Position numbers and translations under genes: made by a program. From a virus, in the IMG/VR virus record IMGVR_UViG_3300048996_000060, positions 1 through 39,549 of that record: a DNA stretch of 39,549 bases; one strand, written 5' to 3'. Shown here one piece after another: positions 8,401 to 31,136 of the stretch. How positions within the stretch are numbered: position 1 is the first letter of the stretch; each line of letters begins with the position of its first letter. The notes under the pieces were generated by a model. That model was not told where the DNA came from. It did no database searches and worked only from the letters and a program-made list of their open reading frames with translations.

Positions 8401-9343
8401 TCATCAGGGCGTAGTAGTGATCGGGTTCGAAAGTGTCCCCGGTCGGAACCACGTCAATAAGGCGCCGAATCAGTCCAGACTTGGCATCAGTGATCTTGAC
8501 GGCCTTGTTGGTTCCCATGTACAGGAACGCGTTCAGCTTCTGCTCGTAGCCAGCCTTGTACTTCTCGTTGATCCGCATCTTGTCGTGACCGACGACCGAG
8601 TTGAGTTTCGAGTTGTCCTCGATTTTCGACAGGTCGCCGTCATGCTGGATCGCTACGAGCGGGTTGTCCTTGAACGCCTCGGTCGCGAAGTTGTTGTTGG
8701 TCCCGACCAGGGCCTTGGCTTCGAACATGGCTACGTAGCCGTCGAACAGCTTCTCGATGATCTTGAGAACTGTCGACTTACCGGTGCCACCCTGACCGTA
8801 GAAGACCATGAACTTCTCGATCTTCTTGGCGTCGCCGGAGATGATGGCACCGATCGACCACTCGATCTTCTCCTTCTCCTCCGGCGTGTACAGGCGGCCC
8901 AGGAGCTCGTCCCAGGCGTCGTGTGCACCCAGGACGAGACTGTAGGGGAGGCACCGACTGACGTAGTCCGTCTTCTTCGTCGGCACCTCATTGGCGAACG
9001 TCACCGTCGTGTCCAGCTGGTGGCTGTTGTCACTGACGTTCTTCATGAACTTCCGGAACTGGCTCCAGCCGTTCGTCCCGAACGAACTGAGGAACTTCGG
9101 AGTTGCCGGCGTCCCCTGTTCGATCAGCTTGTCGCAGTACGTCTGGATCTCTTGGTCCACAAGACGCTGAACGTCGTACTCGTCCGTGGACCAGAGACCG
9201 CGTTCCTCATCCCAGATCGCGTAGAAGGCCCCTCCACGGATCATCAGATCCCTGGAACGACCGACCGTGAAGTCGGGACGTACCTCGACAGGCTTCCCCT
9301 CCTTGGTGGGCTCCTTCAACGTGATTCGAAGGAAGTCCAGCAT
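5444..9343 (-). CDS. fused SF3 helicase, AEP primase-like and family-B DNA polymerase
   Basis: A 1299-aa multidomain replication protein. Residues about 35-340 are a superfamily 3 helicase: Walker A G-Q-G-G-T-G-K-S at 183-190, Walker B-like L-V-A-I-Q-H-D-G-D at 229-237, sensor G-T-N at 277-279, arginine finger R293-R294. Residues about 500-620 resemble archaeo-eukaryotic primases: I-D-F-D at 523-526, S-x-S-G-K-G-V-H at 553-560, E-I-K at 571-573, then R592-R593. Residues 720-880 are a DEDDy 3'-5' exonuclease: D-V-E at 726-728, N-x-x-Y-D at 770-774, Y-x-x-x-D at 861-865. Residues 950-1130 hold polymerase motifs A (Y-D-V-A-S-M-H-P, D963), B (K1029-x3-N1033-x2-Y-G) and C (K-T-D-S, D1085). The start follows GGAGGAGGG. 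Motif identification is strong for helicase, exonuclease and polymerase, moderate for primase. Confidence 0.9.
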   Translation of the reverse strand: MLDFLRITLKEPTKEGKPVEVRPDFTVGRSRDLMIRGGAFYAIWDEERGLWSTDEYDVQRLVDQEIQTYCDKLIEQGTPATPKFLSSFGTNGWSQFRKFMKNVSDNSHQLDTTVTFANEVPTKKTDYVSRCLPYSLVLGAHDAWDELLGRLYTPEEKEKIEWSIGAIISGDAKKIEKFMVFYGQGGTGKSTVLKIIEKLFDGYVAMFEAKALVGTNNNFATEAFKDNPLVAIQHDGDLSKIEDNSKLNSVVGHDKMRINEKYKAGYEQKLNAFLYMGTNKAVKITDAKSGLIRRLIDVVPTGDTFEPDHYYALMNRIDFELGAIAHHCLDLYKRLGKSYYSTYRPERMMLETNVFHNFVDEHYDTFKEQDGVSLRQAYAMYKEWVTDTGVEFKLPQYKFRTALRDFFDEFHTRININGTVVHSYFKGFSAKQFKTPVVPETTPKTYKLVLEETVSLIDEMYSGMPAQYGKHNETPAKYWTDEERIIDGELKKPDPSAVCSTVLGDLDTSKLHFLKVPSHHIVIDFDLTAGGKKSLEANLEAASTWPATYAEISKSGKGVHLHYIYDGDPEELAREYSKGIEIKVFTGNSSLRRKLSFCNNVLIATISSGLPFREKKPVLETNTLKDEQHLRNMIAKGLRKDFEGLSSTKSNVDFIKKLTDDAYVAGFPYDITDLRKPVMVFATGSTNQALQCLKIVKSIKWASEVSAEETVAPKVDAGDAPIVIFDVECFPNFFGICWMYEDSDTVVRMVNPSPDEVAALFKFKLVGFNNRKYDNHMLYAASMGWNNQQLFELSTKLVSKEAQSAYLREAFSLSYADIYEFAATKMGLKKWQIKLGLPHVELDIPFTQPVPPELWDKVMDYCSNDVHSTREVFRHLKQDFVARQILADLSGLPVNATTQKHTSRIIFKGDRNPQQSFIYRDLSEEFPGYEYNYGKSTYCDEEVGEGGYVYAEPGFYEDVDVYDVASMHPTSIIQMEAFGTYTKNFKDLVDARLAIKHKDYASARKMLGGKLAPYLQSEEDAEKLSYAMKIVINIVYGLTAAKFDNDFRDIRNKDNYVAKRGALFMVDLKKFIQSLGFQVVHIKTDSIKIPGVTDALRPELKAAVMDFGKRYGYTFEHEATYKKFCLVNDAVYIAKYGWADKEKKIGTWDAVGAQFQHPWVFKNLFSGEAVKFNDLCETKSVLNPWVMYLDMNPDLATPTEPYAGLVHVGRTGSFVPVLDGGGDLVKVKDGQGKPYAVTGTKGYKWVEAEQLKAQVTIDMPFFDLEVLAGVVDMSFFDELVKDAKDTIGKYVSYEELVRA

Positions 9344-12328: not shown

Positions 12329-12359
12329 AACAGAAAACCCGTGTTAGGGGTTTGCTGTT
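12329..12359 (-). terminator. rho-independent terminator
   Basis: On the minus strand AACAG-x-AAACCC and GGGTTTT-CTGTT form a nested stem around CTAACAC, followed by TTCTC. It closes the 83-aa membrane-protein unit. The CCCTAACA loop recurs in the terminators at 15384 and 16144. Confidence 0.75.
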
Positions 12360-12380: not shown

Positions 12381-12632
12381 TTACAGCCGGGGCTTGACGT
12401 TGGTCTCCCAGAACTCGACGATCTCATCGATCTTGGCGTCGGTGTACTTCCGGGCAGCGTCCGCGGCCATGAAACCGACAACGAGCTGAGCGGAGGCGAC
12501 GGCGGCACGGTTGTGCAGTCGCTCCTCTTCATCAGTGTTCTTGTCGATCACGGCCTTGGCGATGCGGGAAGCTCCGAAGCCGACGACGAAGCCGACGACG
12601 TTCTTGGCGATATCGGTCTTGGACTTAGGCAT
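12381..12632 (-). CDS. small membrane protein, 83 aa
   Basis: Starts at ATG 12632 after GGAGA (4-nt gap). Residues 7-25 form a glycine-rich hydrophobic helix (A-K-N-V-V-G-F-V-V-G-F-G-A-S-R-I-A), and a second moderately hydrophobic helix lies near residues 45-58 (A-S-A-Q-L-V-V-G-F-M-A-A-D-A). The C-terminal 25 residues are a charged helix. The gene is a complete monocistronic unit, with its own 36-bp promoter-like element 14 nt upstream (12646-12681) and terminator 22 nt downstream. Function is unknown. Confidence 0.65.
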   Translation of the reverse strand: MPKSKTDIAKNVVGFVVGFGASRIAKAVIDKNTDEEERLHNRAAVASAQLVVGFMAADAARKYTDAKIDEIVEFWETNVKPRL

Positions 12633-12645
12633 GGGTTCTCCAAAG

Positions 12646-12681
12646 GTAGGGGTCTCGTTATAGAGCTCGAATTTCCTGCGA
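12646..12681 (-). promoter_or_regulatory. 36-bp promoter-like element, copy 1
   Basis: Minus strand: TCGCAGG, 12 nt, then TATAAC plus GAGACCCCTAC. It is one of six elements of identical length and layout, each 10-25 nt upstream of a start codon. The TATAAT-like hexamer is a good -10 box. The conserved upstream block TCGCAGG is too close for a normal -35. Confidence 0.72.
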
Positions 12682-12727
12682 TGAGATGCAGGGCACATGT
12701 TCTACGGGGGTACCGGCTGTCGTTTAA

Positions 12728-12788
12728 GTCAAGCATCCGGACTAGGACCAGGGGAGACCCCTACAGTGACCCAAGATCCTTGCTTGAC
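12728..12788. repeat. inverted repeat holding a reverse copy of GAGACCCCTAC
   Basis: GTCAAGCA (12728-12735) and TGCTTGAC (12781-12788) are perfect 8-nt arms. Between them, on the plus strand, is GGGGAGACCCCTAC (core 12754-12764), the 11-mer of the promoter-like elements in the opposite orientation and without the TATAAT part. It follows the 173-aa gene and may act as a terminator-like fold or a binding site. Confidence 0.5.
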
Positions 12789-12805
12789 CCCCATCTCACC
12801 TCAGG

Positions 12806-13327
12806 TCAGGCGGCCTGCTTGCGCCGGAACGCGATCAGCAGGAACCGCTTGTCCCAGTTCTTGTCGTCCTTGCCGCCGGCCGCGGAGTAGAACTCCTCCC
12901 ACGGAATGGTGAGCAGCTGCTCGTCCGTGTACTCCTTCTTCTCCGGCGAGGCGACCTCGTCCACCCGGCTCTGCATGTCGGCCGGCACCACACCACGGAA
13001 GAACTTGATCGCCTCTTCGGCGTTCGTCGCGAGCTCGATGAACAGCTCCGAGTAGGCGCCGGTCTGCTCGAACTGGGCCGTCAGGTCCGCGTTCTTGACG
13101 AAGCGCTGGCCCTCGCGGCGACCGTACGTCTTCATGATGAGGTCCTTGAAGAGCTCGATGAGCTCCCCGTGGCTCTCGGCCTCGACGATGCGACGGGCGT
13201 ACTCCTCGACGCCGCCCTTCCTGCTGAAGTTCATCTCGACGGCTTCAGCCTTGGTCAGGTTGAAGTGATGGGTCTCGGTGACCGTCTCCCCGTCGAGGTT
13301 GACGTACGTTATGTCCTTCGTGTACAC
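12806..13327 (-). CDS. conserved phage protein, 173 aa
   Basis: A GTG start at 13327 follows AAGGG by 7 nt. The sequence begins Y-T-K-D-I-T-Y-x-N-x-x-G-E and continues F-N-L-T-K-A-E-A-V-E-M, then F-K-D-L-I-M-K-T-Y-G-R-R and E-L-F-I-E-L-A-T-N-A-E-E-A-I-K-F-F. From memory this is a common family in Gram-positive siphophages, sometimes annotated as XkdN-like tail-assembly chaperone, although this window has a better chaperone candidate at 29678-30220. Codons are nearly all G/C-ending, as in the major capsid gene, predicting high expression. The upstream context CTGAAGGGCA-CACC is shared with the 130-aa gene. Confidence 0.62.
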   Translation of the reverse strand: MYTKDITYVNLDGETVTETHHFNLTKAEAVEMNFSRKGGVEEYARRIVEAESHGELIELFKDLIMKTYGRREGQRFVKNADLTAQFEQTGAYSELFIELATNAEEAIKFFRGVVPADMQSRVDEVASPEKKEYTDEQLLTIPWEEFYSAAGGKDDKNWDKRFLLIAFRRKQAA

Positions 13328-13370
13328 GGTGCTGCCCTTCAGGTGCTAGCGCGGATGGTGGGGGTGTGGA

Positions 13371-13763
13371 TCAGGCGTCGACGGCGACGTCGTCCGAGGA
13401 CTCGATGACCTCGTCGGCCTCCAGGCCGTCCTGACGACGGGCGATGGCCCTCAGGACCAGGCTCGCGGCGGTCAGTCCGACGGTGGCGACGACCAGCTTC
13501 TTGTTGCGCTGGAACAGGCCCTTGGCGCCGTCGACCAGCTTCTTGGCCTTGCCGTCCGCCGTGAGCTCGTTGACCTGGACCTGGACCTCACCGTTCTCGT
13601 CCAGGGTCAGCGTCACCGTCATGCCCTCGGACTTCTTGCTCTCGACGGCCTTCAGCGCGTCGCCGATGGTGAGGACGGCCGCGGACTTCGCGTCACTGCT
13701 CTGCTGCTCGGGGACCTCGACCTTGACGTCAGCGGCGGTGTTGGTCTTGGCGGTGTTCGACAT
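13371..13763 (-). CDS. single-span membrane protein, 130 aa
   Basis: The ATG at 13763 lies 10 nt after AAGGG. Residues 1-85 are hydrophilic, with a beta-like stretch M-T-V-T-L-T-L-D-E-N-G-E-V-Q-V-Q-V-N. A basic patch F-Q-R-N-K-K then leads into one transmembrane helix (L-V-V-A-T-V-G-L-T-A-A-S-L-V-L-R-A, about 89-106), followed by an acidic tail ending D-V-A-V-D-A. The layout (K-rich entry, short span, acidic tail) matches the 78-aa protein at 15088-15324. Strong G/C-ending codon bias suggests high expression. Function is unknown. Confidence 0.65.
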   Translation of the reverse strand: MSNTAKTNTAADVKVEVPEQQSSDAKSAAVLTIGDALKAVESKKSEGMTVTLTLDENGEVQVQVNELTADGKAKKLVDGAKGLFQRNKKLVVATVGLTAASLVLRAIARRQDGLEADEVIESSDDVAVDA

Positions 13764-13823
13764 GATGGTGTTGCCCTTCAGCTCAGGAAGTTCAGGATCT
13801 GATGGATGTTGGGCCGAGGCCCG

Positions 13824-14603
13824 TTAGTGAAACGAGTTGTGCCCTCGGTAGGGCACCGCACGGAAGCGCATGACGCCGCAGGGGCGTTCGTCGGGCGTGC
13901 TGCCCCAACTGAACTCCAGGTCCAGCGGGCAGTCGGAGTTCCAGCCGATCATGTCGGACTCGTCTGTCCGGTCCAGGCCGACCAGGTCGTAGAAGTCCGA
14001 CAGCGTCGCGGAGAAGTCGCTGTTGAGCGTGGAGTTGATCTGGTTCGCCGCTCTCTCCAGCGCCACCACGGTGCTGTTGAAGTACCGTCCGGACCAGGAG
14101 TCCCGGAACAGGTCTCCACCACCGCCCTCAACGTAAACCGTCTCGCGGTTTATCGGGTGCCGGTCGATCTCGTCCTGGGCCATCGCGGTCCGAACGGTCT
14201 CTTCCTTCTTCTTGCCGATGGTCTCGACGACCTTGTCGCGGTACTGCAGTGCGGCCTTCTCGGCGATCGTGTACGCCGTCGCCAAAGCCGCCACTCGTCT
14301 GGCACCGATCCGGTTCGCAGCCACCATGCAGGCGATCGTCACCACGGCGACCCCTGCAGCGGGGATGAACTCTTTCCAGACGTACTTGACCTTCTCCTGG
14401 TTCGTCAGCGGAGGGTTGTGCTCCGGGATTGCCTTGGAGAGGTCGGATTCCCACTCATCGAGAATCTGCTTGGCTTTCAGCGTCGCCTTGCCGGTGAGAT
14501 AGGCCGTTGCCAGCGAGCCCACGACGCTGAACGTGGTCAGGATTGCCGGCGAGTTGTCGGCAGCGACTCTTCCCGCCTTCTTGGCGAGTATGCCGAATTC
14601 CAT
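13824..14603 (-). CDS. DUF6353-like membrane protein, paralogue 2 (259 aa)
   Basis: Shares layout and motifs with the 300-aa protein at 10588-11490: an N-terminal span (N-S-P-A-I-L-T-T-F-S-V-V-G-S-L-A-T-A-Y, about 17-36) ending in G-K-A-T-L-K-A, a second span (F-I-P-A-A-G-V-A-V-V-T-I-A-C-M-V-A-A-N-R-I), then R-V-A-A-L-A-T-A-Y-T-I-A-E-K-A-A-L-Q-Y-R. Downstream it has a short L-S-D-F-Y-D-L-V-G-L match to the paralogue's F-L-N-D-V-Y-R-M-L-G-L. It is about 40 residues shorter. The ATG at 14603 follows AGGAG by 6 nt, and the 11-mer GAGACCCCTAC lies just before it inside the end of the previous gene. Function is unknown. Confidence 0.7.
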   Translation of the reverse strand: MEFGILAKKAGRVAADNSPAILTTFSVVGSLATAYLTGKATLKAKQILDEWESDLSKAIPEHNPPLTNQEKVKYVWKEFIPAAGVAVVTIACMVAANRIGARRVAALATAYTIAEKAALQYRDKVVETIGKKKEETVRTAMAQDEIDRHPINRETVYVEGGGGDLFRDSWSGRYFNSTVVALERAANQINSTLNSDFSATLSDFYDLVGLDRTDESDMIGWNSDCPLDLEFSWGSTPDERPCGVMRFRAVPYRGHNSFH

Positions 14604-14604
14604 G

Positions 14605-14820
14605 TCAGTCTCCTGTAGGGGTCTCGGTGTCCTTGACGAGGCGGACGGCCTTGCCGTTCTTCTCAGCCTCCTTCACGCCCTCCCGGTACTTCGTCTTGAT
14701 CTGCTCCCTGCCGTCCTCGTTGAGGATCAACGCGATGGCCCTGGGCAGGGTTCGGCCAAACTCGTAGCCGGCGCCGACCGCGATGGCGATCTTGAGGACG
14801 TTGAAGAAGGTGAGCTTCAC
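14605..14820 (-). CDS. small membrane-anchored protein, 71 aa
   Basis: A GTG start at 14820 overlaps the preceding TGA (GTGA) and follows GGAGGAG, so translation is coupled to the 58-aa gene. Residues 4-20 (F-F-N-V-L-K-I-A-I-A-V-G-A-G-Y-E-F) form a short hydrophobic helix. The rest is a charged helix (E-D-G-R-E-Q-I-K-T-K-Y-R-E-G-V-K-E-A-E-K). Its final codons spell the GAGACCCCTAC element (14615-14625). No family is recognised. Confidence 0.6.
   Translation of the reverse strand: MKLTFFNVLKIAIAVGAGYEFGRTLPRAIALILNEDGREQIKTKYREGVKEAEKNGKAVRLVKDTETPTGD
14615..14625 (-). repeat. GAGACCCCTAC 11-mer without the TATAAT block
   Basis: An exact copy of the 3' part of the 36-bp elements. It lies inside the last codons of the 71-aa gene and 11 nt before the start of DUF6353-like paralogue 2. 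The upstream TCGCAGG and TATAAT blocks are absent, so it is probably not a promoter. Confidence 0.6.
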
Positions 14821-14993
14821 TTGGTCTCCTCCGGGGTGGGGATGCTGTCCCACGCCTTCTTCAGCTGGGGGCGGAAGACCTTGGTCGCCAGGACGAAAGT
14901 CCCGACTACACCGGTCGCGGCACCGACACCCGCCGCCGTGTTGACGAGGAAAACGCGTCCGAGGAAGCCAGCGAACTTGAGGCCGTTGCTCAT
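14817..14993 (-). CDS. small membrane protein, 58 aa
   Basis: Starts at ATG 14993 after AAGGA (8-nt gap). A glycine/alanine-rich hydrophobic helix covers residues about 9-37 (F-L-G-R-V-F-L-V-N-T-A-A-G-V-G-A-A-T-G), and the C-terminus is short and polar (K-K-A-W-D-S-I-P-T-P-E-E-T-K). It is the first gene after the terminator at 15031-15057 and is translationally coupled to the 71-aa gene that follows. No family is recognised. Confidence 0.6.
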   Translation of the reverse strand: MSNGLKFAGFLGRVFLVNTAAGVGAATGVVGTFVLATKVFRPQLKKAWDSIPTPEETK

Positions 14994-15030
14994 TGTTGAT
15001 GTCCTTGTGTCTCGTGTCGAAAAACGAAAA

Positions 15031-15057
15031 CCCATACACCTGGGTAGGGTGCATGGG
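15031..15057 (-). terminator. rho-independent terminator
   Basis: On the minus strand CCCATGCACC pairs with GGTGTATGGG around CTACCCA, followed by TTTTCGTTTTT. A strong stem plus U-tract closes the 78-aa membrane-protein unit. Confidence 0.85.
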
Positions 15058-15087
15058 CTTCTGAGTGACCTGGGGAGGTCGGTGAAC

Positions 15088-15324
15088 TCAGTCTTCGGTC
15101 GGCTCGTCCGAGTCCTCATCGTCCGACGGGCCGAGCAGGCGGGTCGCGACGTAGGTGACTGCGGCGGCGGCGATGGTGCCGAACAGGGCCTTTTTCAACG
15201 CCTTCTTGTTGAAGGTGATGGTGATGGTCTCGTTCGACTCCTCGGCGACGTCGGTGGTCTCCTGGTCAGCGGCCTGCGCGTTCAGCATGGCGGCGGTGGG
15301 GATGGACGTGTCGGTCTTGGACAT
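15088..15324 (-). CDS. single-span membrane protein, 78 aa
   Basis: The ATG at 15324 follows GGAGACCCC. Residues 1-38 are polar, then a basic entry K-K-A-L-K-K-A and one hydrophobic helix (L-F-G-T-I-A-A-A-A-V-T-Y-V-A-T-R-L-L, about 47-64), then an acidic tail G-P-S-D-D-E-D-S-D-E-P-T-E-D. The V-T-Y-V-A-T-R-L-L stretch resembles the I-T-Y-A-L-S-T-A-V-T-R-L-V of the 80-aa protein, suggesting paralogy. It forms an independent unit between a 36-bp element (15341-15376) and a terminator (15031-15057). Confidence 0.68.
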   Translation of the reverse strand: MSKTDTSIPTAAMLNAQAADQETTDVAEESNETITITFNKKALKKALFGTIAAAAVTYVATRLLGPSDDEDSDEPTED

Positions 15325-15340
15325 GGGGTCTCCAGACGTA

Positions 15341-15376
15341 GTAGGGGTCTCACTATAATGCAGGTAATTCTTGCGA
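15341..15376 (-). promoter_or_regulatory. 36-bp promoter-like element, copy 2
   Basis: Minus strand: TCGCAAG, 12 nt, TATAGT, GAGACCCCTAC, ending 17 nt before the 78-aa gene start. Confidence 0.75.
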
Positions 15377-15383
15377 GGACGCT

Positions 15384-15426
15384 AAAACCTAAAGCCCTTG
15401 TTAGGGGCTTGAGGCTTTTGAGGTTC
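15384..15426 (-). terminator. rho-independent terminator with nested stem
   Basis: On the minus strand AACCT and AGGTT enclose an inner AAGCCC/GGGCTT stem with loop CTAACAA, followed by TTAGCG. It closes the 59-aa gene. The inner hairpin is the same sequence as that at 16144-16164, so the terminators in this block are repeated too. Confidence 0.75.
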
Positions 15427-15430
15427 AGCG

Positions 15431-15441
15431 GTAGGGGTCTC
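15431..15441 (-). repeat. GAGACCCCTAC 11-mer at a stop codon
   Basis: An exact 11-mer overlapping the TGA of the 59-aa gene (TGAGACC). It has no TATAAT block and no start codon nearby; a terminator follows. This shows the 11-mer is not tied only to gene starts. Confidence 0.6.
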
Positions 15442-15619
15442 AGTCGGACGTGGGGGCGTCTTCCAGCTTGTTGAGCAAGTAGTTCACACCGTAGTGAACG
15501 ACCACGGTCGCGATGATGGGGATCACGAGCTTGTGCATGATCAGCTTCTTGGCGAGGCGGTTGTTCTCCTTGGCGAGTTCTTCCTTGTTCATCTTCTGAA
15601 TTTCGTTCCAGGACTTCAT
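15440..15619 (-). CDS. single-span membrane protein, 59 aa
   Basis: The ATG at 15619 follows GGAGA (4-nt gap). Residues 1-27 are a charged amphipathic helix (N-K-E-E-L-A-K-E-N-N-R-L-A-K-K-L). One transmembrane helix follows (L-V-I-P-I-I-A-T-V-V-V-H-Y-G-V-N-Y-L-L, about 32-50), then an acidic tail K-L-E-D-A-P-T-S-D. The layout resembles the 78- and 80-aa proteins. A 36-bp element lies 13 nt upstream and a terminator follows directly, making a self-contained unit. Confidence 0.68.
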   Translation of the reverse strand: MKSWNEIQKMNKEELAKENNRLAKKLIMHKLVIPIIATVVVHYGVNYLLNKLEDAPTSD

Positions 15620-15632
15620 GGGGTCTCCAGAC

Positions 15633-15668
15633 GTAGGGGTCTCATTATAGTGCATGTATTTCCTGCGA
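15633..15668 (-). promoter_or_regulatory. 36-bp promoter-like element, copy 3
   Basis: Minus strand: TCGCAGG, 12 nt, TATAAT, GAGACCCCTAC. This copy has a perfect consensus -10 hexamer. GTAGAGGTC at its outer end is a near-inverse of GACCCCTAC, giving an imperfect inverted repeat across the element. Confidence 0.78.
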
Positions 15669-15671
15669 CCT

Positions 15672-15755
15672 CTACAACCCGAACAAGAAGTGCCAAGCCA
15701 AATATAGCCCGCAGACGATGATCCAACCGCATAGAATTCTTTGACGATGGTTCAT
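15672..15755 (-). CDS. 27-aa membrane peptide
   Basis: ATG at 15755 preceded by GGGAG with a 5-nt gap. Translation gives a basic start (M-N-H-R-Q-R) and one hydrophobic helix rich in tryptophan and cysteine (I-L-C-G-W-I-I-V-C-G-L-Y-L-A-W-H-F-L-F-G-L) that runs to the stop. It lies in the gap after the terminator at 15802-15823, and its stop is 3 nt before 36-bp element copy 3. It is too short for normal gene callers. The ribosome site plus clean basic/hydrophobic design support a real transmembrane peptide, but a chance ORF cannot be excluded. Confidence 0.5.
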   Translation of the reverse strand: MNHRQRILCGWIIVCGLYLAWHFLFGL

Positions 15756-15801
15756 ACTTTCTCCCAAATTTCTCCGCCGGGGATTTTCGCCAAAACGAAA
15801 A

Positions 15802-15823
15802 CCCAAATCCCTTGCGGGATGGG
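15802..15823 (-). terminator. rho-independent terminator
   Basis: On the minus strand CCC-ATCCC pairs with GGGAT-TTGGG around GCAA, followed by TTTTCGTTTTGG. It closes the 80-aa membrane-protein unit. Confidence 0.75.
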
Positions 15824-15844
15824 CTTTCCAAATATAGGTGAGGT

Positions 15845-16087
15845 TTACTCGGATTCGCTGTTCTTGGACAGGTTATCGACCAGGCGGGTGACCGCGGTAG
15901 AAAGCGCGTAGGTGATGATCACGGCGCCGACGGCCTTAGCGGTGTGCGTCACGAAGTCCTTGGCGATCTCAGCGATCTGCTCGGGCTCTCGGTGACTGCA
16001 CGCCTCTTTGGGCGCGTCGACGGAGTTGTCATTCTTGGGCGTTTTTACCATGGACACCTGGAGGGCACGATTCCGGCGGTTGAACAC
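15845..16087 (-). CDS. single-span membrane protein, 80 aa
   Basis: Start taken as GTG 16087 after AAAGGA (7-nt gap), in the same position relative to its 36-bp element as in the other cassettes. An ATG at 16051 (12 codons later) is the alternative but has a weaker ribosome site. Residues 1-55 are polar. One hydrophobic helix (A-K-A-V-G-A-V-I-I-T-Y-A-L-S-T-A-V-T-R-L-V, about 51-71) precedes the polar tail N-L-S-K-N-S-E-S-E. It has its own promoter-like element and terminator. Function is unknown. Confidence 0.62.
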   Translation of the reverse strand: MFNRRNRALQVSMVKTPKNDNSVDAPKEACSHREPEQIAEIAKDFVTHTAKAVGAVIITYALSTAVTRLVDNLSKNSESE

Positions 16088-16101
16088 GGCGGGGTCCTTT
16101 C

Positions 16102-16137
16102 GTAGGGGTCTCATCATATAGCCGGTAAAACGTGCGA
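16102..16137 (-). promoter_or_regulatory. 36-bp promoter-like element, copy 4
   Basis: Minus strand: TCGCACG, 12 nt, then ATATGAT in place of TATAAT, then GAGACCCCTAC. This is the most divergent copy in the -10 region; the 11-mer is exact. Confidence 0.68.
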
Positions 16138-16143
16138 AAGCAT

Positions 16144-16164
16144 AAAGCCCTTGTTAGGGGCTTT
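16144..16164 (-). terminator. rho-independent terminator
   Basis: AAAGCCC and GGGCTTT enclose CTAACAA, followed by ATGCTTTCG on the minus strand. It closes the 64-aa gene. Its core is identical to that of the 15384-15426 terminator. Confidence 0.7.
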
Positions 16165-16176
16165 AGAGGCTTGAGG

Positions 16177-16371
16177 TTAGTCCTCGTCGAGAATCATGTC
16201 GGTGAATGCTTCGATGGCCATGATGTAGTCATCCACATCCTTGATGGCGCCCACGAAGAACCGAGGCAGTATGAAGTTCTGGAACTTCACGTAGGTCTCG
16301 GCGCTTTCGCGGTCGAACAGGCGGATGGGGACGAGCAGCAGCGCGACCATGTTGAGGTAACTCGTGAACAT
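16177..16371 (-). CDS. small hypothetical protein with hydrophobic N-terminus, 64 aa
   Basis: The ATG at 16371 follows AGAGGA by 3 nt. Residues 3-16 are hydrophobic (T-S-Y-L-N-M-V-A-L-L-L-V-P-I), possibly a membrane anchor. The rest is amphipathic with F-Q-N-F-I-L-P-R-F-F-V-G-A-I-K-D-V-D-D-Y and an acidic end. It lies in a cassette with a 36-bp element 17 nt upstream and a terminator 13 nt downstream. No family is recognised. Confidence 0.62.
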   Translation of the reverse strand: MFTSYLNMVALLLVPIRLFDRESAETYVKFQNFILPRFFVGAIKDVDDYIMAIEAFTDMILDED

Positions 16372-16387
16372 GGGTCCTCTTTCGAGA

Positions 16388-16423
16388 GTAGGGGTCTCAC
16401 TATAAGGCCCGTAAACCCTGCGA
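16388..16423 (-). promoter_or_regulatory. 36-bp promoter-like element, copy 5
   Basis: Minus strand: TCGCAGG, 12 nt, TATAGT, GAGACCCCTAC, 17 nt before the 64-aa gene start. Confidence 0.75.
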
Positions 16424-16454
16424 GGACAAAAATGAAAGGCACAGAAAACACAAA

Positions 16455-16487
16455 CACCGTGCAAGAGTGGGGTTCTCTTACACGGCG
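16455..16487 (-). terminator. strong rho-independent terminator
   Basis: CGCCGTG pairs with CACGGTG (one wobble) and an inner AAGAG/CTCTT stem encloses ACCCCA. TTTGTGTTTTC follows on the minus strand. It closes the 98-aa membrane-protein unit. Confidence 0.85.
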
Positions 16488-16523
16488 TCTGCGTTGATTT
16501 CCTGCGGGGTTGAAGTGGCCTTG

Positions 16524-16820
16524 TTACCGGGCGAGCTTCGTCACGAAGCCCAGCGCCTTGGTCACGATGATGTGTCCGGACTTCTCGAAGATGAGGATGG
16601 CCATGATTCCGGAGATGCTTCCAGCCAGGTTGGCCAGCGTGTCAGGGCTCACGCGCTTCTTCGACTTGGATTCGTCGTTGAGCTTGTAGAGCTTGACCAG
16701 CTGGTCAGCCGTCTTGGAGTATTCTTCGGACTCGGGGTCCATCCCCTGCAGCGAGTCGAACAGACGCGTGATCGCGTCGTCCAGCGGGGTGGGCTCAATG
16801 GTGGAAGCCTTGAGGGTCAT
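16524..16820 (-). CDS. small membrane protein, 98 aa
   Basis: Start taken as ATG 16820, 9 nt after AGGAG; a TTG one codon earlier is possible. The N-terminal 65 residues are soluble and helical (D-A-I-T-R-L-F-D-S-L then E-E-Y-S-K-T-A-D-Q-L-V-K-L-Y-K-L). A basic patch K-S-K-K-R-V precedes a hydrophobic C-terminal helix (L-A-N-L-A-G-S-I-S-G-I-M-A-I-L-I-F) and T-K-A-L-G-F-V-T-K-L. It follows the holin genes and has its own 36-bp element and strong terminator. A lysis-related role is possible from position only. Confidence 0.65.
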   Translation of the reverse strand: MTLKASTIEPTPLDDAITRLFDSLQGMDPESEEYSKTADQLVKLYKLNDESKSKKRVSPDTLANLAGSISGIMAILIFEKSGHIIVTKALGFVTKLAR

Positions 16821-16840
16821 CAAGGGGTTCTCCTAGAGTC

Positions 16841-16876
16841 GTAGGGGTCTCATTACAGGGCAAGAATATCCTGCGA
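16841..16876 (-). promoter_or_regulatory. 36-bp promoter-like element, copy 6
   Basis: Minus strand: TCGCAGG, 12 nt, TGTAAT, GAGACCCCTAC. GTAGGGGTC overlapping its outer end (16875-16883) is the exact inverse of the inner GACCCCTAC, so this copy is bounded by a perfect 9-bp inverted repeat. Confidence 0.75.
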
Positions 16877-28875: not shown

Positions 28876-29664
28876 TTACCCGTCGCTGATCGTGTAGGTG
28901 TCGGGATCGACCTCGACGACAGTCGGCCAGTTGAACTGGAGGAGAATATCGTCGAGATGGGTGATGGCTTCGTCCGGACCTGAGATGGTCGCTGTTCCGT
29001 CGCCGTTGTCGACGATGACAAAGACAAAGAACGCGTCGTACATCTCGACCAGTTGGTCAAGCGTGGGGAGATAAGGCATCGCCTCGTCGGACCCGTACAG
29101 AGCTTCCTCAACCAGAGAAAGGACGTTCGGGTCCGTCGTTCGCGAGTCGATCTCGATGTGCGATGTTCGCTTGTAGCCGGCGACCGCAGGCGGCTTGGTC
29201 TTGACGGACCATGCGAACGGAGTCGGGTCCACCGTGTCGGTCTTGGTCTCGTGGGTCCGGCCGGAGGGTTCGGCCAGAGCGTTGTAAACCAGGTGGATCT
29301 TGTAGCCGGCGTCCGGATTCAGATCTGTGCCGACCGTCGTTCGCCAGGAGAAGCCGAAAGGCTTTCGCCGTTGCTGACGGAGGGACAGGCCGTTACGAAC
29401 CGACCGAGACCCGTCACACTCGGCGAACTGCGGCGGGTATGTGAAGGCGTTGATCGTGGCGCCGAACTCTTCCCTCGCGGAAACGAGAAGGATCTTCTCG
29501 CCGTCGAGGTAGTACGACTTCGTACCGCCACCTTCGGGTGCCAACTCGACGGATGTCAGGCCGGTCCATGCGACTCCTGCTTGCCCGGTGAGGTACAGGA
29601 CACCACGGTCAACGCCCGTCTCGAACTCTCGACTTCCGGGCGCAGTCCAATCCAGCCTTGTCAC
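28876..29664 (-). CDS. second major-tail-protein-like protein (tail tube paralogue)
   Basis: 262 aa from GTG 29664 (AGGAGG, 6-nt gap). It aligns with the tail tube protein at 30249-31136 over residues about 1-210: E-x-G-V-D-R-G-V-L-Y, W-x-G-L-x-S-V, E-E-F-G-A-T-I-x-A-F-T-Y-P, F-G-F-S-x-x-x-x-x-G-x-D-L-N-P-D-A-G-x-K-I-H-L-V-Y, E-A-L-Y-G. It lacks that protein's immunoglobulin-like C-terminal domain and ends in another 50-residue segment (D-N-G-D-G-T-A-T-I-S-G-P). It may form a distal or proximal ring of the tube, or be a minor tube subunit. Confidence 0.75.
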   Translation of the reverse strand: MTRLDWTAPGSREFETGVDRGVLYLTGQAGVAWTGLTSVELAPEGGGTKSYYLDGEKILLVSAREEFGATINAFTYPPQFAECDGSRSVRNGLSLRQQRRKPFGFSWRTTVGTDLNPDAGYKIHLVYNALAEPSGRTHETKTDTVDPTPFAWSVKTKPPAVAGYKRTSHIEIDSRTTDPNVLSLVEEALYGSDEAMPYLPTLDQLVEMYDAFFVFVIVDNGDGTATISGPDEAITHLDDILLQFNWPTVVEVDPDTYTISDG

Positions 29665-30248: not shown

Positions 30249-31136
30249 TCAGAAGTCGCCGATGAGCCAGTCGGCGTCGACGGGCTGCGTGAACTTGTAG
30301 CCCACCGCCGGGCGAGCCTCGACGACCTTGTTGGTGGTCAGGGCCGGCTGAGCACCCGGAGCCAGCAGCTCGTCGTCCATGTAGTACTGGACGCCCGTGA
30401 TCGACGGGATCGTCATGACGTTGGTCGTGGTGTCGTACGTCGGCTCGGTCGGGGTGGCCGTCAGGACGGCGCCCGAGAACAGAGCCACGACAGCGGCCGG
30501 CGTCGGCAGGGACGGGTCGGTACCCGCGGTGCCGTAGAGGAACTCTCGAAGGGTGGCGACCGCGTCGGGGTCCTCCTTCGTGGTGTCGACGGTGATCGTC
30601 GAGAGCGGCTTGTACGTGGTGCCGCCGATCGTCCCGACCTGGACCGGGCTGGTGGCGAGCTCCCACGAGAACGTCGCCGCCTCCGGCGAGTCGTTGACCG
30701 TGGTCATGGCCTTCTCGGACGGGTTGGCGGTGGCGCCGTAGACCAGGTGGATCTTCTCGCCGGCGTCCGGGTTGAGGTCGTTGCCGATCTTGGAGACGTA
30801 CGAGAAGCCGAAGGTCGGGCGACCCTGCTGACCGAGGGACAGGCCCGGGGTCGGGCTGGCCGAACCGTCCAGAGCCGGAATGGCCTGGAGCGGGTAGGTG
30901 AACGCCTCGATGGTCGCGCCGAACTCCTCGGCGGAACGGAGGCTCGCGTAGACGATGTTGTCGGCGTACTGCTTGTTGACCTCGGCGCCAGACGGCGACT
31001 CGGTGACGGAGACCAGACCGTTCCAGGCGTACCCGTGGTCGTAGGCGCCGGCGCCGTTGACGGTGTAGAAGACGCCCTTCTCGACGCCGTTCTCGTACAC
31101 CTTCTCGCCGACCTGGTCCCACTGGAGGACAGACAT
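30249..31136 (-). CDS. major tail (tube) protein with C-terminal Ig-like domain
   Basis: 295 aa. The ATG at 31136 follows GGGGAG by 6 nt. Residues 1-220 are the tail tube fold, with E-E-F-G-A-T-I-E-A-F-T-Y-P-L, F-G-F-S-Y-V-S-K-I-G-N-D-L-N-P-D-A-G-E-K-I-H-L-V-Y-G and F-L-Y-G-T-A-G. Residues about 224-295 are a bacterial Ig-like domain (T-P-T-E-P-T-Y and so on) that also ends the capsid protein at 31777-33846. It forms the hexameric rings of the tail tube; the Ig-like domain would decorate the tail exterior. Codons are strongly G/C-ending, as expected for an abundant protein. Confidence 0.9.
   Translation of the reverse strand: MSVLQWDQVGEKVYENGVEKGVFYTVNGAGAYDHGYAWNGLVSVTESPSGAEVNKQYADNIVYASLRSAEEFGATIEAFTYPLQAIPALDGSASPTPGLSLGQQGRPTFGFSYVSKIGNDLNPDAGEKIHLVYGATANPSEKAMTTVNDSPEAATFSWELATSPVQVGTIGGTTYKPLSTITVDTTKEDPDAVATLREFLYGTAGTDPSLPTPAAVVALFSGAVLTATPTEPTYDTTTNVMTIPSITGVQYYMDDELLAPGAQPALTTNKVVEARPAVGYKFTQPVDADWLIGDF

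Follow-up and report, generated by a model that had tools for sequence, protein, structure and literature searches.

Candidate promoters of a phage-encoded two-barrel RNA polymerase precede small genes in phages of Gram-positive hosts

The window analyzed here is the whole of IMG/VR virus record IMGVR_UViG_3300048996_000060 (39,549 nt), and between positions 12646 and 16876 it holds six copies of a short element, each ahead of a small gene. The copies are all exactly 36 bp, ungapped and on the minus strand (Table 1). An initial reading of the letters (the original prediction) had described them as near-identical promoter-like copies lying 10–25 nt upstream of start codons, and their number, length, strand and positions were all borne out, with measured gaps of 13–17 nt to ATG (four copies), GTG (one) or TTG (one). 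The term "near-identical" holds for the parts that are invariant in six of six copies, namely TCGCA, the box region, GAGACCCCTAC and a handful of single positions, and is too strong for the rest. TCGCAGG, which had been taken for the conserved block, occurs in only four copies, the remaining two reading TCGCAAG and TCGCACG; the invariant part is TCGCA. The TATAAT-like box is present as predicted, in the exact forms TATAAT, TATAGT, TATAAC, TATGAT, and TGTAAT. A degenerate 36-mer pattern composed from the six sites themselves and searched across the window with ≤ 3 mismatches returned these six copies only, and it matched nothing in 100 dinucleotide shuffles. GAGACCCCTAC also occurs without the upstream half at 14615–14625 (−), 15431–15441 (−), and 12754–12764 (+); these occurrences were not counted as elements, and the one at 15431 shares bases with a stop codon (TGAGACCCCTAC).

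The array genes encode proteins of 59–99 aa, most with one hydrophobic segment, and a terminator-like hairpin lies 3′ of most of them.

Table 1. Elements, small genes and terminator-like hairpins of the array, in window coordinates
Feature	Position	Strand	Sequence	Details
Element copy 1	16841–16876	−	TCGCAGGATATTCTTGCCCTGTAATGAGACCCCTAC	box 16852–16857
Element copy 2	16388–16423	−	TCGCAGGGTTTACGGGCCTTATAGTGAGACCCCTAC	box 16399–16404
Element copy 3	16102–16137	−	TCGCACGTTTTACCGGCTATATGATGAGACCCCTAC	box 16113–16118
Element copy 4	15633–15668	−	TCGCAGGAAATACATGCACTATAATGAGACCCCTAC	box 15644–15649
Element copy 5	15341–15376	−	TCGCAAGAATTACCTGCATTATAGTGAGACCCCTAC	box 15352–15357
Element copy 6	12646–12681	−	TCGCAGGAAATTCGAGCTCTATAACGAGACCCCTAC	box 12657–12662
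Small gene under copy 1	16524–16823	−		99 aa, TTG start, phrog_5818
Small gene under copy 2	16177–16371	−		64 aa, weak phrog_3340
Small gene under copy 3	15845–16087	−		80 aa, GTG start, phrog_6618, one hydrophobic segment
Small gene under copy 4	15440–15619	−		59 aa, one hydrophobic segment
Small gene under copy 5	15088–15324	−		78 aa, one hydrophobic segment
Small gene under copy 6	12381–12632	−		83 aa, phrog_7539, hydrophobic segment
Terminator-like hairpin	16448–16494	−		between copy-1 gene and element copy 2
Terminator-like hairpin	15807–15820	−		between copy-3 gene and element copy 4
Terminator-like hairpin	15392–15410	−		between copy-4 gene and element copy 5
Terminator-like hairpin	15027–15061	−		3′ of copy-5 gene
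Terminator-like hairpin	12335–12353	−		3′ of copy-6 gene

The window matches genomes of Scapunavirus, a genus of Streptomyces phages, at 83–87%, and by its sequence is a truncated genome of that genus. From the position of a 390-aa helicase open reading frame (ORF; 866–2038) and the map of the relative Bilo, we infer that the contig ends within the HNH gene and lacks the final four Bilo genes, which encode VRR-Nuc, Cas4, a 910-aa protein, and a 78-aa protein. Gene direction is uniform throughout each Scapunavirus record examined.

A position weight matrix (PWM) built from the six sites located the element in the matching small-gene region of nine Scapunavirus records, with the orthologue of copy 1 upstream of Bilo gp26, and also in pSt2402, Madamato, Scarif, and SscP1EGY. 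The consensus was drawn from 66 distinct actinophage sites; with the PWM, Gordonia Tanis, Rhodococcus ReqiPoco6, and saliva contig89 yielded 6–11 copies each. The same matrix returned no copies from Lactococcus P162 or Faecalibacterium Oengus, where a related core was spotted by reading upstream sequences. The P162 core is TTTTACATACCCTATAATGAA, and ACANNNNCTATAATGA with ≤ 1 mismatch gives 11 matches vs 0.9 expected, while the Oengus core, ACGCG-N6-ACA-N5-CTTTATG, gives 14 vs 0.02 expected, both expectations describing patterns chosen from the data. In Lactococcus 1706, several small genes are preceded by TTTTACATACACTATAGTAGAA-type sequences. Most copies in Bilo and Tanis stand 12–17 nt from the start codon. 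TATAAT is the commonest box among actinophages, where the A at −11 is kept in 52 of 66 sites; the Firmicutes box is mostly CTTTAT or TTTTAT, and Oengus and most Firmicutes copies have T at −11 instead. In place of a gene, some elements have downstream of them a tRNA, a non-coding stretch that appears structured, or at once a terminator (L141:18668, L282:8938, L143:29798, L144:23099, and L018:41699); Rfam, applied to the non-coding stretches behind elements in Gordonia, Rhodococcus, and Arthrobacter records, recognized one tRNA only.

The distribution of the element follows that of phrog_4291, the family of the 910-aa Bilo protein. A blastn search with a 36-nt consensus, itself chosen from element sites, matched 172 phage records out of 50 697, every one from a genus with phrog_4291, and tblastn with phrog_4291 returned 250 phage records. 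Counts of element-bearing and polymerase-bearing records are equal in Gordonia (55/55), Streptomyces (54/54), and Rhodococcus (4/4); that the two sets coincide is read from these per-genus counts, among the matches listed. The letter-reversed 36-mer gave no blastn match in the phage records. In IMG/VR, the element pattern occurs in at least 120 stretches, compared with 0 for the reversed pattern in the whole viral collection. When 50 IMG/VR records were selected by the element alone, 28 matched phrog_4291 (four of these by short partial matches only), and among those of ≥ 40 kb the gene was found in 18/18, full or cut at the contig end, some of the element-selected records being isolate genomes also in the phage collection and so not independent of it. 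Conversely, all 18 polymerase-selected records (37–53 kb) contain the element, with 2–8 copies at ≤ 3 mismatches, and the reversed pattern occurs once in total.

The association extends to bacterial genomes, from which 80 loci with polymerase relatives were collected, mostly from Firmicutes by record title. A relaxed core regular expression gave 91 matches across 1.42 Mb of prophage loci, all on the polymerase strand, and 0 when reversed. Across nine whole bacterial genomes, a strict core pattern gave 46 matches, against 0 for its reverse; 40 of the 46, counted from coordinates, share the strand of the polymerase gene and are no more than ∼30 kb away from it, four are clustered on another R. 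torques contig, and two are stray. Butyrivibrio, one of the nine, has the polymerase and no match to the strict pattern. No polymerase relatives were found in the plasmids searched. The core in Lactococcus, Faecalibacterium, and Firmicutes prophages lies beside polymerases that are ∼40–45% identical. Across these searches, the motif is present with the polymerase and absent elsewhere, apart from a shortfall in three genera and subject to lineage co-inheritance, both weighed below.

The Bilo protein carries DFDGD at residues 519–523, a motif invariant in 46 phrog_4291-type sequences, and the family has helix-turn-helix (HTH) domains near both ends. Four diverse members (Bilo, P162, Oengus, and ReqiPoco6) share a weak match to an RdRP Pfam family at the same position. 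In the complete relatives examined, the gene lies near the far genome end, a region outside the truncated window. Because a sequence search of PDB with the polymerase gave no meaningful match, its structure was predicted. The AlphaFold model, built from the 46-sequence alignment, has a mean predicted local distance difference test score of 79.4 and a predicted template modeling (TM) score of 0.68. Its best Foldseek matches in PDB are QDE-1, P74-26 gp62 (a phage polymerase of the P23-45 type), and maize RDR2 (probability 1.00, E 9e-9 to 5e-5), at a global TM of ∼0.3, which we read as differing domain orientation. The DxDxD loop and the predicted QDE-1-class fold place phrog_4291 in the two-barrel RNA polymerase fold, as a statement of fold class only, and on this assignment the relatives of the window encode a two-barrel polymerase. 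YonO of SPbeta, an enzyme already characterized within that fold class, belongs to phrog_8308, to which phrog_4291 shows a weak match (E 0.0038); membership of phrog_4291 in the YonO family was rejected for lack of sequence-level homology. A second gene, phrog_4303 (∼80 aa; 78 aa in Bilo), lies directly 3′ of the polymerase gene in six of the six genomes tested, from phages of Streptomyces, Rhodococcus, Lactococcus, and Faecalibacterium. Short ORFs in four element-bearing contigs (G014, G015, G022, and G043) resemble polymerase residues ∼116–249 and may possibly encode a stand-alone DNA-binding piece.

In many family members, the polymerase gene is itself preceded, at ∼900–950 nt, by a variant element. 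In many Firmicutes loci, a copy lies ∼900–1000 nt upstream of the gene, and many actinophage contigs carry the upstream copy as a TATAATAGAAGG variant (upstream copies at L237–L316, around locus 9040–9070; L140:27683; L148:3860). In Firmicutes, a hairpin with a T-run directly follows this copy on its 3′ side. Leader folding energy averages −13.4 kcal/mol, compared with −6.4 kcal/mol in mononucleotide shuffles, and pairing begins from +1 to +3 in 72% of 32 dereplicated leaders vs 42% of shuffles; adding upstream bases shifts the start of pairing upstream in many leaders. These hairpins are suggestive of an RNA start near the box and of attenuation, and the polymerase operon may possibly be autogenous and attenuated.

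The six elements are almost certainly promoters, and we consider it likely that the two-barrel RNA polymerase of the phage itself uses them to transcribe monocistronic genes for small proteins. A phage-encoded reader, one of the options in the original prediction, is probable; the element tracks a phage single-chain two-barrel RNA polymerase across host phyla. The reader would be the ∼910-aa single-chain double-psi beta-barrel enzyme of phrog_4291, whose N- and C-terminal HTH domains probably recognize the upstream TCGCA and the mid-element ACA in double-stranded DNA, perhaps assisted by phrog_4303, a possible partner at initiation. DNA melting would take place at the AT-rich box (TATAAT in actinophages; CTTTAT or TTTTAT in Firmicutes phages), with the RNA starting near the conserved G 3′ of the box. 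Each copy would drive a single small gene, the encoded proteins mostly having one hydrophobic segment; with terminator-like hairpins after most of these genes, the array would consist of separately transcribed cistrons.

Several observations weigh against assigning the elements to the phage polymerase. The polymerase, phrog_4303, and other core genes are co-inherited, which means that co-occurrence by itself does not mark the polymerase as the reader. Fewer records match the 36-mer than carry the polymerase in Arthrobacter (54/95), Curtobacterium (4/7), and Microbacterium (1/4), a shortfall of the kind expected where copies have diverged (two Arthrobacter phages and one Curtobacterium phage were inspected); the PWM finds diverged copies in Arthrobacter Mudcat and Stayer and in Curtobacterium Yotsuba. 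The CGC half is missing from the Lactococcus copies. Recognition by eye came first for the Oengus, P162, and 1706 forms, with their patterns built afterwards, and the pattern applied to bacterial genomes was built once the Oengus and prophage copies were known. The leader-based argument for the start site is weak, a profile alignment of YonO with phrog_4291 gave no alignment, the two being too distant, and the element was not found in 50 kb of SPbeta, inspected including the late region. Finally, the actinophage box equals the sigma-70 −10 consensus, and host RNA polymerase could read it.

This last point leads to the explanation that the housekeeping sigma reads the TATAAT box while a conserved phage activator on TCGCA and ACA replaces the −35, as MotA does. 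We judge it unlikely. TATAAT is indeed the commonest actinophage box, and the conserved block stands 12–14 nt upstream, at a spacing like that of a MotA box. A sigma-70 scan (−35/−10, 16–18 nt spacing) gave one match in the region, at none of the six copies, with 1.2 expected, which speaks for the phage polymerase and agrees with the earlier description of the elements as promoter-like without a sigma-70 −35. The main argument against a host −10 is that the CTTTAT or TTTTAT box of most Firmicutes copies lacks the −11A needed by sigma-70, which is therefore not kept across the family. A single activator–host match would also have to hold from Streptomyces to Lactococcus, and the element accompanies the phage polymerase gene; the same tracking, with the Firmicutes box, tells against the host −10 box with an activator, or the unusual sigma, that had been proposed from the window. 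A version of the phage-polymerase reading, overlapping with it, places specificity in a separate factor, such as a sigma-like phrog_4303. The constant adjacency of phrog_4303 to the polymerase is what recommends this version, which we find possible but doubtful: the polymerase has HTH domains of its own at both ends, so an extra factor is not required, and phrog_4303 has no recognized fold or function.

Two further explanations do without promoters. Operators or stoperators of a phage repressor would, as in cluster A mycobacteriophages, be repeated intergenic sites of fixed sequence, yet the copies lack symmetry, are directional and keep a near-constant distance to the start codon, repressor and integrase annotations are absent from the Scapunavirus records examined, and Scarif is described as virulent (PMC11536984); we regard this explanation as very improbable. 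Least credible of all are start-associated sequences acting in translation, or recombination sites. The near-constant gap to the start codon would suit them, but any plausible mRNA begins downstream of both TCGCA and the box, which leaves the conservation of the TCGCA half unexplained by translation alone, and some copies precede a tRNA or non-coding stretches.

Beyond promoter recognition by the phage polymerase, we tentatively put forward, as a rather less secure proposal, that the enzyme is carried in the virion and injected, that the array forms a pre-early regulon of small membrane proteins, independent of the host polymerase, and that the polymerase operon stands under its own element and an attenuator-like hairpin. 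The proposal is prompted by the polymerase N-terminus, where HYG..R.SGRYP.GSG echoes the HYGVKGMKWG motif of small proteins from the terminase/portal region, and by the ReqiPoco6 record, which labels the polymerase homologue in Lactococcus 1706 a structural protein. In the window (37226) and in relatives, small proteins encoded near terminase and portal bear the motif as HYG[VI]KGMKWGVRR.

Two repeats lie elsewhere in the window. An inverted repeat (574–722) with 62-nt arms, 79% complementary and 25 nt apart, falls in the helicase–HNH gap. A 130-nt direct repeat (72%) at 29262–29391 and 30716–30845 corresponds at both sites to major tail protein gene regions of relatives and perhaps arose by gene duplication.

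Few single-chain two-barrel phage polymerases have known promoters. The candidate promoter described here combines a defined core with hundreds of natural variants, and ∼250 sequenced phages carry the matching polymerase gene, so that promoter recognition by a minimal polymerase can be tested directly; the candidate could also supply orthogonal expression parts for actinomycetes and, if the assignment is true, would explain transcription of the long small-membrane-protein array in these phages. Among the open papers searched, none was found to describe the element, although it may have been noticed before. The early promoters of phiC31 were considered as a lead through a literature search, which gave no useful match; its genome was not compared.

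Among known systems, T4 middle promoters carry, instead of a −35, a MotA box ∼12 bp from the −10, and they share with the element a −10-like box and a conserved block ∼12 nt upstream. They differ in that MotA and AsiA use the host holoenzyme, whereas the box here loses its sigma-70 features in Firmicutes; no MotA homologue was recognized here, with no search aimed at MotA made. T7-type promoters are likewise short and self-contained, with a purine-rich initial sequence immediately after a TATA stretch, as in the element, but the T7 polymerase fold is unrelated. The start-associated sequences of cluster K mycobacteriophages (SAS/ESAS) are GGGATAGGAGCCC-type sequences at starts, and by eye the element differs from that consensus. 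SPBRE of SPbeta is also a repeated intergenic element in a phage with a single-chain polymerase; it is bound by the MrpR repressor (PMC10516654), and as an MrpR operator it was rejected as an equivalent. YonO of SPbeta is, like the enzyme proposed here, a single-chain RNA polymerase (DNA-dependent) from a phage of Gram-positive bacteria, with a promoter sequence stated as still to be determined (PMC5467207), but it transcribes late genes, whereas the element serves a small-gene array. The closest parallel is P23-45/P74-26, which has a single-chain two-barrel phage polymerase of the same fold (P74-26 gp62 being a top structural match) and short conserved motifs upstream of starts. Its motif is a different one and its tape-measure fusion is not seen here, where the phages infect Gram-positive hosts and the start sites are predicted. 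P23-45 uses distinct short motifs for its polymerases, and its AT-rich motif is missing from relatives without the corresponding polymerase (PMC10770324), a precedent for reading the 36-bp elements as promoters of the phage's own enzyme.

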